DNA of 64,000 nt, taken from assembly GCF_018282115.1 (NCBI RefSeq), contig NZ_CP054306.1, positions 2,527,488 through 2,591,487 of the forward strand, in the 5' to 3' direction. Source of the DNA: Synechocystis sp. PCC 7338. Lineage in GTDB: Bacteria > Cyanobacteriota > Cyanobacteriia > Cyanobacteriales > Microcystaceae. The notes beneath the pieces are model-generated. The model was given only the letters and a program-made list of their open reading frames with translations, made no database searches and was not told the origin of the DNA. The position numbers were made by a program, and so were the translations under genes. Below are positions 43,990 to 49,616 of this stretch, in pieces (position 1 is the stretch's first letter; each line of letters opens with the position of its first letter).

Positions 43990-45210
43990 TTGCTATCCTC
44001 TGCCCCCCAACATACTGATTCTGCACTGGCGGAGCTAAAAAATTTAGCCCAAACGCTACTGCCCCGGCTGGTGGAAATCCGTCGCCATCTCCATGCCCAT
44101 CCAGAGTTAAGCGGCCAAGAATATCAAACGGCGGCCTATGTGGCGGGGGTGCTGTCCTCCTGTGGTCTCCACGTCGAAGAGGCGATCGGAAAAACTGGGG
44201 TAGTGGGACAGTTGCCAGGGCAGGGGATCGATACCCGACTGTTGGCCATTCGCACCGATATGGATGCCTTACCCATCCAGGAAATGGTGGGTCTGGCCTT
44301 TGCTTCCCGCCATCCTGGAGTGATGCACGCCTGTGGCCACGATATCCACACCACTTTGGGTTTGGGTACGGCCATGGTGTTGTCCCAAATGAGCGCTAAG
44401 TTACCGGGGGATGTGCGCTTTTTGTTTCAACCGGCAGAGGAAATTGCCCAGGGGGCCAGTTGGATGATTCAAGATGGGGCCATGAAGGGGGTGAGCCATA
44501 TTTTTGGGGTCCATGTTTTTCCGTCCATTCCCGCCCAGCAGGTAGGCATTCGTTACGGTGCTTTAACAGCAGCGGCGGATGATCTGGAAATTTTCATCCA
44601 AGGGGAATCGGGGCATGGTGCTAGGCCCCACGAGGCGATCGATGCCATTTGGATTGCGGCCCAAGTAATCACAGCCTTACAACAAGCCATTAGTCGTACC
44701 CAAAATCCCCTGCGGCCCATGGTGCTTTCCCTGGGGCAAATTAGTGGTGGCCGAGCCCCCAATGTCATTGCCGACCAAGTCCGCATGGCCGGCACAGTGC
44801 GGTCGCTCCACCCCGATACCCACGCCCAACTGCCCCAATGGATTGAAGGTATTGTAGGCAGTGTGTGTCAAACCTATGGTGCTAAGTACGAAGTCAATTA
44901 TCGCCGAGGAGTACCTTCAGTACAGAACGATGCCCAGCTAAATAAATTGTTAGAAAATTCCGTGCGGGATGCCTGGGGAGACGAAGCCTTACAAATTATC
45001 CCCGAACCATCCCTAGGGGCAGAAGATTTTGCTTTGTACCTAGAACACGCCCCCGGAGCTATGTTTCGCCTAGGCACCGGTTTTGGCGATCGCCCGATGA
45101 ACCATCCTTTGCACCATCCCCGCTTTGAAGCAGATGAAACGGCAATTTTAACGGGGGTTGTGACCCTCAGCTATGCCGCCTGGCAATATTGGCAAAGCAT
45201 TCCAATGTAA
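43990..45210 (+). CDS. M20D-family N-acyl-amino acid amidohydrolase
   Basis: A 406-residue zinc peptidase of the M20/HipO type that hydrolyses N-acyl-amino acids or related amides. The metal site shows in DTDMDALP-like RTDMDALPIQEM, HACGHDIHTT and FQPAEEIAQGA. The dimerisation lid is at about residues 185-300 (SGHGARPHEAIDAIW), and the last ligand region is SLGAEDFALYLEHAPGAMFRLG. The start is TTG 43990; the frame has a stop at 43969 and no ATG or GTG between, so this is the only plausible start. It corresponds to sll0100. The 255 bases after it carry no gene but two small hairpins. Confidence 0.9.
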   Translation: MLSSAPQHTDSALAELKNLAQTLLPRLVEIRRHLHAHPELSGQEYQTAAYVAGVLSSCGLHVEEAIGKTGVVGQLPGQGIDTRLLAIRTDMDALPIQEMVGLAFASRHPGVMHACGHDIHTTLGLGTAMVLSQMSAKLPGDVRFLFQPAEEIAQGASWMIQDGAMKGVSHIFGVHVFPSIPAQQVGIRYGALTAAADDLEIFIQGESGHGARPHEAIDAIWIAAQVITALQQAISRTQNPLRPMVLSLGQISGGRAPNVIADQVRMAGTVRSLHPDTHAQLPQWIEGIVGSVCQTYGAKYEVNYRRGVPSVQNDAQLNKLLENSVRDAWGDEALQIIPEPSLGAEDFALYLEHAPGAMFRLGTGFGDRPMNHPLHHPRFEADETAILTGVVTLSYAAWQYWQSIPM

Positions 45211-45465
45211 CGTCTTAATGACCAAATTCAAGAATTGTTAAGGAGGGATTTTGAATTTGAGGATTGACCTGGATGACAAAATAGCGATCACTAGAGGTCG
45301 GGTAGAGTATAATGTCTGGATAATTTTACACTTTGCGTAATTGTGATCCAATTATCGCCCAGGCGATCACCTCCCGCCAACCGATTGGAAGCCTTTAAAT
45401 GTCGGTGCTAGGTTCCGAGACCGGCAACCCAGCTTATTTCTCTTAGCTTACATTAAGATTTAAGT

Positions 45466-45903
45466 ATGATTGAATTAAATGAACAAGAAGAAAATGATAG
45501 TGTTGATATTGTCCATCAGAATGACGGCGATATTCTAGGAAATATTCACAGTTTCTTCAGCCAAGCTCTGACAAACGTTCAAAACACGGCAAACTCAGGT
45601 GTTGAGACTCTAGCTTGGACAGCATCAACCCTTAGCTCAGTTATAACTGAAGGTACAACATCCAACTTCAATTTTTTAATTGATAAACTTTCATCCCTAG
45701 TATCGGGAAAAGAAATTTCTGAGGAACAGCGTCGGACCGCTTTAGAAATAATTAAAGCAGGTAAAGACAAGGGAGTTGACGAACTGGAAATAGAAGTAGA
45801 TCAGGCAGTTGGTATGAAACTAATTTCGGACAATGAAATTTTTAAAAGTAATGCTGTTATTGGCAGTACTGGTAAAATGACCATCAAAATCAAATACAAG
45901 TAA
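45466..45903 (+). CDS. Unknown acidic protein, first gene of an AT-rich pair
   Basis: A 145-residue protein I do not recognise. It is acidic at the N terminus (MIELNEQEENDSVDIVHQND) and then Ser/Thr/Asn-rich with amphipathic helices (FFSQALTNVQNTANSGVETLAWTASTL). It ends with an EDQAVG-like helix and a basic strand (GSTGKMTIKIKYK). No signal peptide, metal site or enzyme motif is visible. Codon use is clearly more AT-rich than the neighbours and HIP1 is absent, which suggests transfer. It ends 13 bases before the next gene, so the two form an operon. Confidence 0.6.
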   Translation: MIELNEQEENDSVDIVHQNDGDILGNIHSFFSQALTNVQNTANSGVETLAWTASTLSSVITEGTTSNFNFLIDKLSSLVSGKEISEEQRRTALEIIKAGKDKGVDELEIEVDQAVGMKLISDNEIFKSNAVIGSTGKMTIKIKYK

Positions 45904-45916
45904 TTTCAAACTAAAC

Positions 45917-46483
45917 ATGGCTAGAGAATCATTAAAAACAAGTTTTGATAAGCTAATTTATCTAGATTCAGAGTTTATTTCTACAAAATATGAGGAAATT
46001 AGAGGAATTACTCCTTCGACCGAGTTCACAAAAATTGAAGGGTTAAGAAGTCAGATTAGTATTCCTGTAATTTCGTCAGGAATACATACTCAAGAAACAC
46101 GTAAGTTTAAAGTTTCTTCACTGCAAATGTGGAAAAAAATAAATACTGAGCTTTATAAATATCCCCAATTAAAAATTACCGATTTTGTGAATTATCAAGG
46201 GACAAAGATAGGTTGGCTTGATGGCAAATTTTCTTTTGGAATATGGAATGAAAAAGTAAGTAACAATTCTTATGAAAATTTTGAACTTGATTCTAAAGGA
46301 TTAAGGGTAGCCTTACTTACTACACCAGAATATCTTTCAGCTGGCTTTAGTATGTTATCGACTGCATCTATCGCAATTAAAAGCAATATTGGTATCCCAG
46401 TAAATATTCTTGCTAAAATAATGTGGTTTGCAGAAAACACTCAAACCTATGTAGCTTGTCCCTACTTAATTATCGAAAAGTAG
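45917..46483 (+). CDS. Unknown protein, second gene of an AT-rich pair
   Basis: A 188-residue protein without a recognised family. It opens MARESLKTSFDKLIYLDSEF. The segment LIYLDSEFIS faintly recalls DUF6414-type proteins, but I would not assign it. A mixed alpha/beta body follows, then a mildly hydrophobic stretch at about residues 140-175 (LSAGFSMLSTASIAIKSN, NILAKIMWFAENTQTYVACP). Base composition is low in GC like the preceding gene, and the 13-base gap suggests joint expression. Horizontal origin is likely; function is unknown. Confidence 0.6.
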   Translation: MARESLKTSFDKLIYLDSEFISTKYEEIRGITPSTEFTKIEGLRSQISIPVISSGIHTQETRKFKVSSLQMWKKINTELYKYPQLKITDFVNYQGTKIGWLDGKFSFGIWNEKVSNNSYENFELDSKGLRVALLTTPEYLSAGFSMLSTASIAIKSNIGIPVNILAKIMWFAENTQTYVACPYLIIEK

Positions 46484-46563
46484 AAGTAATTGAGTTTTAT
46501 CTGTAGTAAAAATTATAGAAATTTCACACAAGGACTGTTAATACAGCTATAATTGCTCAGTCT

Positions 46564-46845
46564 TTAATTTTTTTGAAACCATGTGTCGACATTTAAAAGA
46601 AGCCATAATATTCCGGGCACAATTGCGATAAGAATTAGAGGAGGATTTGCAAAACTACCAAAAATCAGAAGAATCATCAATCCAAACATTACAATTTTTA
46701 ACGGGCTATTAACAAACTTAATTAAATTTCTACTTTTTTTAGGTAATTTATAAAAATTCCTTGCTACCGCATATCCACAATTAGGACAAGCCTCTGCACT
46801 AGAACTAACTTTTTGTGAGCATTCGGGACATATAACAAGTGACAT
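46564..46845 (-). CDS. Zinc-ribbon membrane protein
   Basis: A 93-residue protein. Residues 1-27 form a zinc ribbon (CPECSQ at 6-11 and CPNCGYAV at 20-27). Residues about 46-65 and 68-85 are two hydrophobic helices (IVMFGLMILLIFGSF, PLILIAIVPGILWLLLNV). This small ribbon-plus-TM layout occurs widely in bacteria with no known function. The gene is AT-rich, like its neighbours, and faces the two-gene unit convergently. Confidence 0.7.
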   Translation of the reverse strand: MSLVICPECSQKVSSSAEACPNCGYAVARNFYKLPKKSRNLIKFVNSPLKIVMFGLMILLIFGSFANPPLILIAIVPGILWLLLNVDTWFQKN

Positions 46846-47010
46846 AAAAGCAAACAGCTATCGTATAAATAACAAGAAAGTATACACTCTAAATCTAGTT
46901 TGAAATAGATCTGCTAAGAGAAATTAGAGTTTGAGGATAAATATATCATCACACATCTCGTCTTGCAAGTGAGCTAGCATACACTTAAAATTCACGATTA
47001 AGGAACCGGG

Positions 47011-47193
47011 TTTGAAGGCCCCATCAAAAACCTGCGTGATTTATACGAAATATTTACAGAAGATGAAATACCGGGAATCAATTTTCTCAAATTATTATTC
47101 CACCGGATTCGGTAAGGTTTTGAGCCGGAATATGTGCATCAGGCAATAGAATTTAAGAAGAGATTGATCTATTTGTCCGATTTTGCATTGTAG
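47011..47193 (+). pseudogene. Relic of an unknown gene, 3' part only
   Basis: A frame without a start reads FEGPIKNLRDLYEIFTEDEIPG, then INFLKLLFHRIR, a TAA at 47113-47115, and continues GFEPEYVHQAIEFKKRLIYLSDFAL to TAG at 47191-47193. Both halves look like real protein in one frame, so a nonsense codon splits a gene whose 5' end is missing. I do not recognise the family. The end of the relic touches the raf1 start. Confidence 0.45.
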
Positions 47194-47194
47194 A

Positions 47195-48271
47195 ATGACC
47201 CATTCCCCTGAATCCAATCCGACTGTGAGCGCCGCCGAAGCCGCTGAACTGATCCGTTCCCTGTTGCATAAAGAGGGGACTTGGGTGGATTGGGGTAAAA
47301 AATGTCAGCAATTACAGAAGGCAGGTTACGGTGCTGAAGAAATTTTTGAGCAGTCCGGCTTCCAGAAAGTGCAACAAAATTTGGTGATTGTGGCCAGCCA
47401 AGTATATGAAAGCTTAGTCAAGCAGGGCATCGATGAAACAGTGCTAGCCTATTATCGGGGCCCGAAAAGTGATGTGCTGTACGAACTACGCATCCTCAAC
47501 CATCAACAACGGGCGATCGCCGCAGTGGAGGCCCAACAGAAAAATTTGGCCGCCGATGAAGCGAAGGAATTGGCTAAGGCATTTCAGGAATTTGGTTACC
47601 TGTCCCAACTGCCAGAAGGTTTTACCGACCATCCTGGGGACGCATTGGCCTATCAATGTTGGAAATTAGCCCGGCAGAAAAAGAATTTACCGGAAAGAAC
47701 CCGTTTAATTGTCAAAGGATTAAAATTTGCCCATTCCCCCAACGCCCGTCAGGCGATCGAAAAATTACTGACTGATTTAACCGCCCAGCCCAGCCGGAAA
47801 GCTCCCTTGGTGCCGGTGTTTCGCCTTGAGGAAGACCAGGAAGCGGCCCGACTCATTCCAGTGGCAGGCACTTTTCCTCTCCAGCCCCAGGCGGTGCAGG
47901 CAGTACAATCCCTAGAGCAAGTGGAACCATTTGGTTTAGTTAATTACCAAGGCAATGGAGCGGTGGTGCCGGTGCCCCAGTGGCAAGCGATTTTAACAGC
48001 GGTGGATCCGGTGGCGATTTTCTGCCAAGCGGGGGATGTGTCAGAATCCTTAGCCCGTAAGGACGAACAGGTTTTAGTGGTGGTGGATCGCAGCCAAACA
48101 AGCTGGAATGATGGCAGTTATTTTCTGCTTAGTCAGGGGGAAACACTGGCAATTCAATGGTGTGAAACTGAGCCGGAAAAAGAAATTCTGGCCAAAGTGG
48201 TGTTGGTGCTACGGCCGAAGAAAATTTTTGATGCCAATAACCTGCGGGAACCCTGGCAAATGGATGATTAG
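47195..48271 (+). CDS. raf1: Rubisco accumulation factor 1 (Raf1)
   Basis: Raf1 is an assembly chaperone that binds folded RbcL dimers and brings them to the L8 core before RbcS joins. The 358-residue protein has the N-terminal helical domain (LIRSLLHKEGTWVDWGKKCQQL, EEIFEQSGFQKVQQNLVIVASQVYESLV), a flexible linker at about residues 195-215, and the C-terminal beta dimerisation domain (LVPVFRLEEDQEAARLIPVAG, PFGLVNYQG, VVVDRSQTSWNDGSYFLL). ATG 47195 fits the family start. It is followed by the VWA and CHAT genes on the same strand. Confidence 0.92.
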   Translation: MTHSPESNPTVSAAEAAELIRSLLHKEGTWVDWGKKCQQLQKAGYGAEEIFEQSGFQKVQQNLVIVASQVYESLVKQGIDETVLAYYRGPKSDVLYELRILNHQQRAIAAVEAQQKNLAADEAKELAKAFQEFGYLSQLPEGFTDHPGDALAYQCWKLARQKKNLPERTRLIVKGLKFAHSPNARQAIEKLLTDLTAQPSRKAPLVPVFRLEEDQEAARLIPVAGTFPLQPQAVQAVQSLEQVEPFGLVNYQGNGAVVPVPQWQAILTAVDPVAIFCQAGDVSESLARKDEQVLVVVDRSQTSWNDGSYFLLSQGETLAIQWCETEPEKEILAKVVLVLRPKKIFDANNLREPWQMDD

Positions 48272-48353
48272 CTTGACAGTTTACCGATCAGGAGAACATC
48301 CCAGGGGCAAAAATCTTGCAGTAAGCTAAAGGAAAAAGTTTGAGTTGCTCCCC

Positions 48354-49616
48354 ATGCGTATCGATCTTTCCCTTTTACTAAGTGACCAAAATTTAGATGC
48401 TGGGGCTCCCACCAGTCAGCGGCAGTTGCGGGTAGCAGTGGCGGCCAAAGCGGACGAGGCCGATCGCCGTTTACCGTTAAATCTCTGTTTAGTCTTAGAC
48501 CACAGTGGTTCCATGGATGGTCAGCCCCTGGAAACGGTAAAAAGTGCGGCCCTGGGATTAATCGATCGCCTGGGGGAAGAGGATCGTCTTGCGGTCATTG
48601 CCTTCGACCACCGGGCCAAAATTGTCATTGAAAATCAGCAGGTACGCAACGGAGCGGCGATCGCCAAGGGCATTGAAAGGTTGAAAGCGGAAGGGGGCAC
48701 TGCCATTGATGAAGGGCTGAAACTAGGCATTCAGGAAGCGGCTAAAGGTAAGGAAGACCGGGTTTCCCACATTTTTTTGCTCACCGATGGGGAAAATGAA
48801 CACGGGGACAATGACCGTTGTTTGAAACTGGGCACTGTTGCGTCGGACTATCACCTCACTGTGCACACCCTTGGTTTTGGGGATCACTGGAATCAGGACG
48901 TGTTGGAGGCGATCGCCTCCTCGGCCCAGGGCAGTTTGAGCTATATCGAAAATCCCAACGAAGCGCTACATACTTTTCGGCAACTGTTTCAACGCATGAG
49001 CAGTGTGGGACTAACCAATGCCCACCTCTTGCTGGAATTAACCCCCCAAGCCCATCTGGCCAATGTTAAACCCGTGGCCCAAGTGTCACCGGAAACGATG
49101 GATTTAGCCGTGCAAAGCCAAGGACAAAACTGTGAGGTTCGTTTAGGGGATTTGATGACCGACCAGGAAAGAATTTTACTGATTAACCTTTACCTAGACC
49201 AATTACCACCAGGGCCACACGTTATCGGGCAGGTGAAAATTCGTTACGATGACCCCGCTTCCGGCCAAACTAATTTGCTTTCCGACCCATTGCCCTTGAC
49301 CATTCAGGTGCAAAGCCAGTATCAACCAAGCACCGACGCCCAGGTACAGGAATCGATTCTCACCTTGGCTAAATATCGTCAGACCCAAATCGCTGAAACT
49401 AAGCTCAAAGCCGGCGATCGCCAAGGGGCCGCCACCATGCTCCAAACCGCCGCCAAAACTGCTCTGCAAATGGGGGATAAAAACGGGGCCACCGTCCTGC
49501 AAACCAATGCCACTAGGCTACAATCCGGGGAAGATTTGTCCGAAGGCGATCGGAAAAAGACCCGCATGGTCAGCAAAACCACCCTCCAGGCACCATCGTC
49601 CCCACCGTCGGAATAA
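48354..49616 (+). CDS. Von Willebrand factor A domain protein
   Basis: A 420-residue soluble protein corresponding to sll0103 as I recall. The VWA domain lies at about residues 40-215, with the MIDAS metal motif DHSGSMDG (DxSxS), the Thr in GGTAIDEGL and the Asp in LLTDGENEHG all in place. It should therefore bind Mg2+ and a partner. A beta domain (about 225-325) and an Ala/Gln-rich helical tail with TPR-like character (QGAATMLQTAAKTALQ) follow. No signal peptide is visible. It begins 83 bases after raf1 and ends 31 bases before the CHAT gene, so the latter pair is likely one transcript. Confidence 0.85.
   Translation: MRIDLSLLLSDQNLDAGAPTSQRQLRVAVAAKADEADRRLPLNLCLVLDHSGSMDGQPLETVKSAALGLIDRLGEEDRLAVIAFDHRAKIVIENQQVRNGAAIAKGIERLKAEGGTAIDEGLKLGIQEAAKGKEDRVSHIFLLTDGENEHGDNDRCLKLGTVASDYHLTVHTLGFGDHWNQDVLEAIASSAQGSLSYIENPNEALHTFRQLFQRMSSVGLTNAHLLLELTPQAHLANVKPVAQVSPETMDLAVQSQGQNCEVRLGDLMTDQERILLINLYLDQLPPGPHVIGQVKIRYDDPASGQTNLLSDPLPLTIQVQSQYQPSTDAQVQESILTLAKYRQTQIAETKLKAGDRQGAATMLQTAAKTALQMGDKNGATVLQTNATRLQSGEDLSEGDRKKTRMVSKTTLQAPSSPPSE

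Follow-up and report, generated by a model that had tools for sequence, protein, structure and literature searches.

A possible accessory gene cassette in a variable, defence-carrying slot between an M20 peptidase gene and raf1 of Synechocystis sp. PCC 7338

The window, a 64-kb stretch of DNA from Synechocystis sp. PCC 7338 that was analysed as a whole, carries two small rightward genes, ORF1 and ORF2, between a gene for an M20 peptidase and raf1 (Table 1), the latter with an internal ATG at 47195 that agrees with the start in sister genomes. Both ORFs of the first-pass annotation are present as described, on the same strand and separated by 13 bp, and both look like true coding genes, to judge from the protein relatives that each of them has. 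The ORF1 product is acidic (pI 4.6) and that of ORF2 basic (pI 8.8). The portrait of an acidic protein followed by a partly hydrophobic one therefore fits the first member but only weakly the second, which has no 19-residue stretch of hydropathy above 1.16 and thus no clear membrane segment. Scans against Pfam, NCBIfam, PADLOC and PHROGs gave no above-threshold hit for either protein, toxin and antitoxin domains included, and neither matches a housekeeping family, in agreement with an annotation that could name no family for them.

The pair is also more AT-rich than its surroundings, as had been noted. GC content is 36.1% in ORF1 and 31.4% in ORF2, versus 48.2% in the whole window, 54.5% in the flanking M20 gene and 50.6% in raf1. 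Low GC extends over positions 45407-46999 (32.9%), and it is at ORF1-ORF2 that 1018-bp stretches reach their lowest GC anywhere in the 64 kb. The reported lack of HIP1 sites was confirmed, none occurring between 45086 and 47513, but its significance was not: this gap of 2427 bp ranks only fifth in length among those separating the window's 55 HIP1 sites (the longest measures 4855 bp), so that we regard the absence as weak evidence. A promoter scan of positions 45200-47250 found neither a plus-strand match ahead of ORF1 nor a terminator-like site; because its four promoter-like matches are fewer than the shuffle mean of 7.4, the scan is uninformative.

The AT-rich stretch further contains the convergent zinc-ribbon gene that had been annotated there. 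It codes for a membrane protein with one strongly hydrophobic segment, for which the fetched loci yielded, beyond the window genome's own, no match but a weak one of 33 residues (E 0.038), and its membership in a cassette with ORF1 and ORF2 is uncertain. The truncated gene relic of the first-pass annotation, located between the zinc-ribbon gene and raf1, proved to be what is left of a hicB antitoxin gene (tblastn, E 7.8e-7, 65% over 26 aa). An inverted repeat encloses the zinc-ribbon gene together with ORF1 and ORF2, and its arms may be the ends of an element or may have paired by chance; as a comparable pair occurs in 19 of 300 dinucleotide shuffles, the repeat is only suggestive.

Table 1. 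Coordinates of the features at the ORF1-ORF2 locus (positions in the window)
Feature	Position	Strand	Details
M20 peptidase/amidohydrolase gene	43990..45210	+	PF01546, E 1.1e-43; left border of slot
Intergenic block after M20, common to G004	45211..45406	+	91% over 258 columns, 45150-45406
15-nt inverted repeat, left arm	45433..45447	+	14/15 matching right arm
ORF1	45466..45903	+	145 aa, ATG start
ORF2	45917..46483	+	188 aa, ATG start
Convergent zinc-ribbon membrane protein, 93 aa	46564..46845	-	Zn_ribbon_3, E 2e-6
15-nt inverted repeat, right arm	46913..46927	+	14/15 matching left arm
hicB antitoxin gene relic	47000..47081	+	BLASTN 78% DNA identity over 82 bp, G004 hicB-like gene
raf1 (Rubisco accumulation factor)	47183..48271	+	Right border of slot

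G003 and G004, the sister genomes nearest to the window (raf1 identity of 97% in one and 92% in the other), carry different cargo between their M20 gene and raf1. The slot of G004 (L012) holds a PADLOC PDC-M30A-type protein (E 2.9e-28) with a GMT-wHTH domain, which we take to be the protein named three-Cys-motif partner; a DUF5131 protein on the opposite strand (PADLOC PDC-M41B, E 2.3e-102; PDC-M30B, E 7.4e-100); HicB-like and HicA genes (HicA Pfam E 4.8e-11; HicB called from its place ahead of hicA together with UPF0150 similarity below threshold); and a gene of 102 aa that Pfam does not match. That of G003 (L013) is occupied by a ParA-like ATPase (AAA_31, E 1.2e-27) whose N-terminal stretch resembles HsdR_N below threshold (E 0.0027), a Rho_N-domain protein (E 5.3e-6; SAP sub-threshold) and a 102-aa gene. 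The ParA-like ATPase gene of G003 overlaps the Rho_N-domain gene (L013:2207-4296), and the two are a possible unnamed two-gene system in their own right. G001 and G002, of the same genus, have other genes beside raf1 and are uninformative on the slot. For Synechocystis PCC 6803, HicA/HicB loci are treated in a paper that gives 69 toxin-antitoxin loci in the strain (PMC4963859).

The edges of the variable segment are visible in the same comparison. A vWA-domain gene (48345-49616) directly follows raf1 in the window as well as in G004 and G003 (94-96%), where it accompanies other cargo; the right flank is thus conserved, and this gene looks like flank rather than cargo. On the left, the similarity between the window and G004 stops near 45406, which marks the edge of the inserted stretch. 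G004 also has a degenerate second copy of the M20 3' end (~100 bp; L012:4375-4475, 87% over 101 bp) downstream of its cargo, as if this cargo had inserted at the end of M20. Together, these comparisons identify the M20-raf1 interval as a variable slot in which sister genomes carry defence and toxin-antitoxin cargo. The same flanking genes with differing cargo that includes defence genes, the pattern by which a defence hot spot is recognized, are found in G003 and G004, and with the hicB scar in the window they bear out the insertion hot spot suspected in the first-pass annotation.

ORF1 itself belongs to an unnamed small-protein family, with relatives in 17 genomes besides the window's, namely 15 from cyanobacteria and two from Bacteroidota. 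Overlapping samples of 98, 386 and 388 genomes yielded 4, 7 and 13 genomes with a match, the window genome being included in each count; a search of genome contigs gave eight loci, four of them in genomes new to the other samples, and plasmids, phages and viral contigs held no ORF1 relative. A sample of 295 genomes from the class of the Prevotellaceae member (G444) added nothing to the genome from which the search started but a single weak match (E 5e-4, dropped). Members have a variable N-terminal part and a conserved C-terminal domain, which in ORF1 spans approximately residues 86-145 and ends IKIKYK; intact proteins of the family terminate at KYK or a few residues from it. In an 11-row alignment, I96, D105, E106, E108 and I109 are invariant, and G99, G133, K143, Y144 and K145 nearly so. 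The structural model of ORF1 is usable in part: pLDDT, averaged over ten residues, is 56-80 beyond residue 80 and 27-45 up to there, so that it offers no model of the N-terminal half. The remainder is predicted to fold into a helix (86-101) and a long beta hairpin (strands 106-122 and 127-143). A PDB fold search with this model reached a best E of 0.16, and a PDB profile match at E 7e-4 was dismissed because it was to a designed helical repeat protein.

By eye, ORF1 resembles Trypco1 (PF19493) in its small size, a helix followed by two long strands, a DE-h-E-h motif and a lysine-aromatic end, and both families have genes that accompany varied effectors; ORF1 is, however, without the N-terminal strands of Trypco1. 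According to two papers, Trypco1 genes adjoin trypsin-like peptidases in VMAP conflict systems (PMC7159879), and the Trypco domain is termed an adapter (PMC10907252). Membership of ORF1 in Trypco1 is not supported: PF19493 matched none of seven ORF1-family members in the Pfam scan and nothing in the window genome (G000), and profile comparisons gave probabilities of 13% and 1.5%, the score of the latter being reached by 2 of 100 column shuffles and about equalled by a reversed profile. Of the genes that would mark a Trypco1 setting, trypsin-like peptidases are absent among those scanned, other neighbours having been read by eye, and a vWA-domain gene stands beyond raf1 but belongs to the flank, being present in G003 and G004 too.

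A sole relative of ORF2 emerged from tblastn searches of plasmids, phages, genome contigs, viral contigs and whole genomes (98; 386). Encoded on pSYN6312.01, a plasmid from Synechococcus sp. PCC 6312 (L011), it is 45% identical over 183 residues and has in common with ORF2 the motif LIYLD, a number of tryptophans and a block of the form IPV...IMW...CPY. The gene upstream of it is unrelated to ORF1, and pSYN6312.01 encodes no ORF1-type protein. Conversely, the stretches fetched around the ORF1 relatives of the 17 other genomes contain no ORF2 relative; among all 148 fetched loci, only the window genome's own and L011 do. Three matches in frames of ~440 residues from the 386-genome search (E 1.5e-4 to 3e-4), one of which (L017) looks by eye like a TolC-type outer-membrane protein, were dropped as false, as were two phage matches at E 0.5. 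Structure prediction, advised for each protein in the first-pass annotation, was informative for ORF1 from residue 81 on but not for ORF2, which without an alignment gave a mean pLDDT of 29.6 and no usable model. The start of ORF2 carries an IYLD motif similar to that of DUF6414 (PF19952) and in register with it by hhalign. The probability of that alignment is 0.7%, 5 of 100 shuffles score equally, and PF19952 has no match in the window genome or on pSYN6312.01 at E up to 10, so that membership in DUF6414 is not supported; the domain was also absent from the 149 genomes searched in G444's class. Remote-homology profile comparison thus bore out neither Trypco1 for ORF1 nor DUF6414 for ORF2.

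The plasmid-borne relative, together with the AT-rich insert, its possible terminal inverted repeat and the relics nearby, would suit an origin of ORF1 and ORF2 as functionless leftovers of a mobile element, for instance a plasmid. We rate this as the least probable of the explanations considered here, given that both genes are intact, that the three scanned genes of the insert do not belong to transposase, integrase or phage families, and that no convincing relative was found in phages or viral contigs, the two phage matches having E 0.5.

The genes beside ORF1 relatives were compared at 15 evaluable loci, after omission of G743, where the contig ends downstream, and G927, with a 38-residue match. 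A same-strand gene follows within 200 bp at 11 of them, and the other four (G089, G817, G836 and G447) are without such a close neighbour. Since bacterial genes commonly have neighbours on the same strand, this proportion alone proves little, and it is the nature of the partners that carries the argument. In the Pseudanabaena genome G446 (L058), a gene for a Tse2-type ADP-ribosyltransferase (PF18648, E 1.2e-14) lies 6 bp downstream. Counterparts 83-84% identical to it directly follow the ORF1 relative in G044, G042 and G039, three genomes of one genus (g7; one is Microcystis wesenbergii), and the third gene in line is also the same as in G446 (86%). The ORF1-Tse2 association hence amounts to one lineage in four genomes, and ORF2 differs in that it has no Pfam match to the Tse2 family. 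The three g7 genomes have an interrupted ORF1 copy but an intact Tse2-type gene and an intact gene after it. That three of four ORF1 copies are broken beside intact Tse2-type genes indicates that ORF1 is dispensable there and counts against a tight functional pair at these loci. As a separate observation, the Tse2-type gene is followed by a gene of 175-191 aa at L058:6241-7243, L003:405-1429, L024:1844-2868 and L060:1236-2260, that of L058 having no Pfam match; this third gene, intact along with the Tse2-type gene where ORF1 is broken, may be its immunity partner.

Other relatives keep different company. In G050 (L005), a Hypoth_Ymh gene lies 199 bp downstream (E 2.7e-25; PADLOC Aga_HEPN, 2.6e-9, and PD-Lambda-3_B, 1.3e-7), and in G432 (L088) a Uma2 gene at 16 bp matches the candidate family PDC-S17 (E 2.8e-40), Uma2 genes being common in cyanobacteria. 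A 150-aa gene and then a PIN_12 gene (E 9.1e-20) follow in G200 (L025), and a Roc/Arf-like GTPase gene (E 3.8e-6) begins 54 bp downstream in G445 (L062). The ORF1 relative of G444 (L061) comes after LeoBC and LeoA dynamin-like genes (E 4.7e-84 and 8.7e-83), presumably those of the system named Eleos, and precedes by 37 bp a 210-aa gene without Pfam match; LeoA/LeoBC were met at this locus only, a single observation, and neither they nor dynamin-like genes occur among the scanned neighbours in the window. Several partners have no PADLOC match, among them the gene 51 bp downstream in G161, which we take to be DUF4238-like, and that at 109 bp in G340, SnoaL-like by eye. Of 14 neighbour proteins selected from nine ORF1-family loci, four (LeoA, Hypoth_Ymh and two Uma2) matched PADLOC at E 1e-6 or better. 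The control, 52 random proteins (56 regions minus L134 and L122, which lie beside ORF1 loci, L125, with no ORF, and L137, a duplicate), matched PADLOC too, to 50 families; as families rather than matching proteins were counted, the control is not convertible to a count per protein and we claim no enrichment near defence genes.

The hint in the first-pass annotation at a toxin-antitoxin or defence pair accordingly gains indirect support for ORF1, some of whose relatives stand beside Tse2-type, Hypoth_Ymh or LeoA/LeoBC genes, but not for the pair, which is not co-conserved: ORF1 and ORF2 were found together neither at the ORF1 loci of the 17 genomes nor on pSYN6312.01, the very outcome that the annotation had set against its suggestion. 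A dedicated toxin-antitoxin pair becomes less likely because the two genes never occur together elsewhere in these searches. In its classical type II form, with the acidic ORF1 as antitoxin and ORF2 as toxin, such a pair would account for the gene order, the spacing and the low pI of the first protein, in a slot that bears HicBA and in a family with Tse2-type toxin genes behind some of its members. However, the family scans showed no DNA-binding domain or toxin family in either protein, the joint conservation typical of type II systems is absent across the 148 fetched loci and pSYN6312.01, broken ORF1 copies beside intact Tse2-type genes disfavour an antitoxin role there, and the family also adjoins GTPase and Uma2 genes. 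We therefore consider this form improbable, ranking it above the mobile-element leftovers only.

A good deal more plausible, and in our view a serious possibility, is that two unrelated accessory genes came to occupy the same slot by chance, ORF1 acting alone and ORF2 being a separate gene of plasmid type. The 4 of 15 ORF1 relatives without a close downstream gene, the location of the sole ORF2 relative on a plasmid that lacks ORF1, and the decay of ORF1 copies next to Tse2 while their neighbours are intact all speak for this chance association. The 13-bp same-strand spacing in the window speaks against it, as does the close same-strand gene downstream at 11 of the 15 loci, common as that arrangement is in bacteria.

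The explanation that we prefer, tentatively and by a very narrow margin over unrelated neighbours, is that ORF1 and ORF2 form an acquired accessory cassette in a variable slot for defence cargo, in which ORF1 would be an adaptor or regulator of a neighbour's product and ORF2 its effector partner. The variable slot, the hicB relic, the copy of the M20 end, the AT-rich insert and the 13-bp same-strand spacing point to this cassette, as does the similar placement of ORF1 relatives beside toxin- or defence-type genes. Counting against it, the ORF1-ORF2 pair is present in one genome only among those searched. Mechanistically, we infer that ORF1 could bind the product of the neighbouring gene, and that ORF2, as its partner here and a putative effector of a novel kind, would be either restrained or switched on by ORF1 under stress or when phages attack.

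On a broader version, ORF1 would be one of an undescribed family of interchangeable adaptors whose C-terminal hairpin couples to many effectors, Tse2-type, Hypoth_Ymh, LeoA/LeoBC and ORF2 among them, in a new modular conflict system, with ORF2 as an effector of unfamiliar fold; this we deem unlikely, though somewhat less so than a type II pair. The interruption of ORF1 beside Tse2 lowers the adaptor-cassette, toxin-antitoxin and modular-family readings alike and raises that of unrelated neighbours.

In any event, the mapped hot spot and the recognisable family of small proteins provide a handle on uncharacterised cyanobacterial defence and toxin cassettes, and ORF2 is a concrete orphan protein and candidate effector. 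If ORF1 does serve as an adaptor, its family would flag new effectors wherever it is present.
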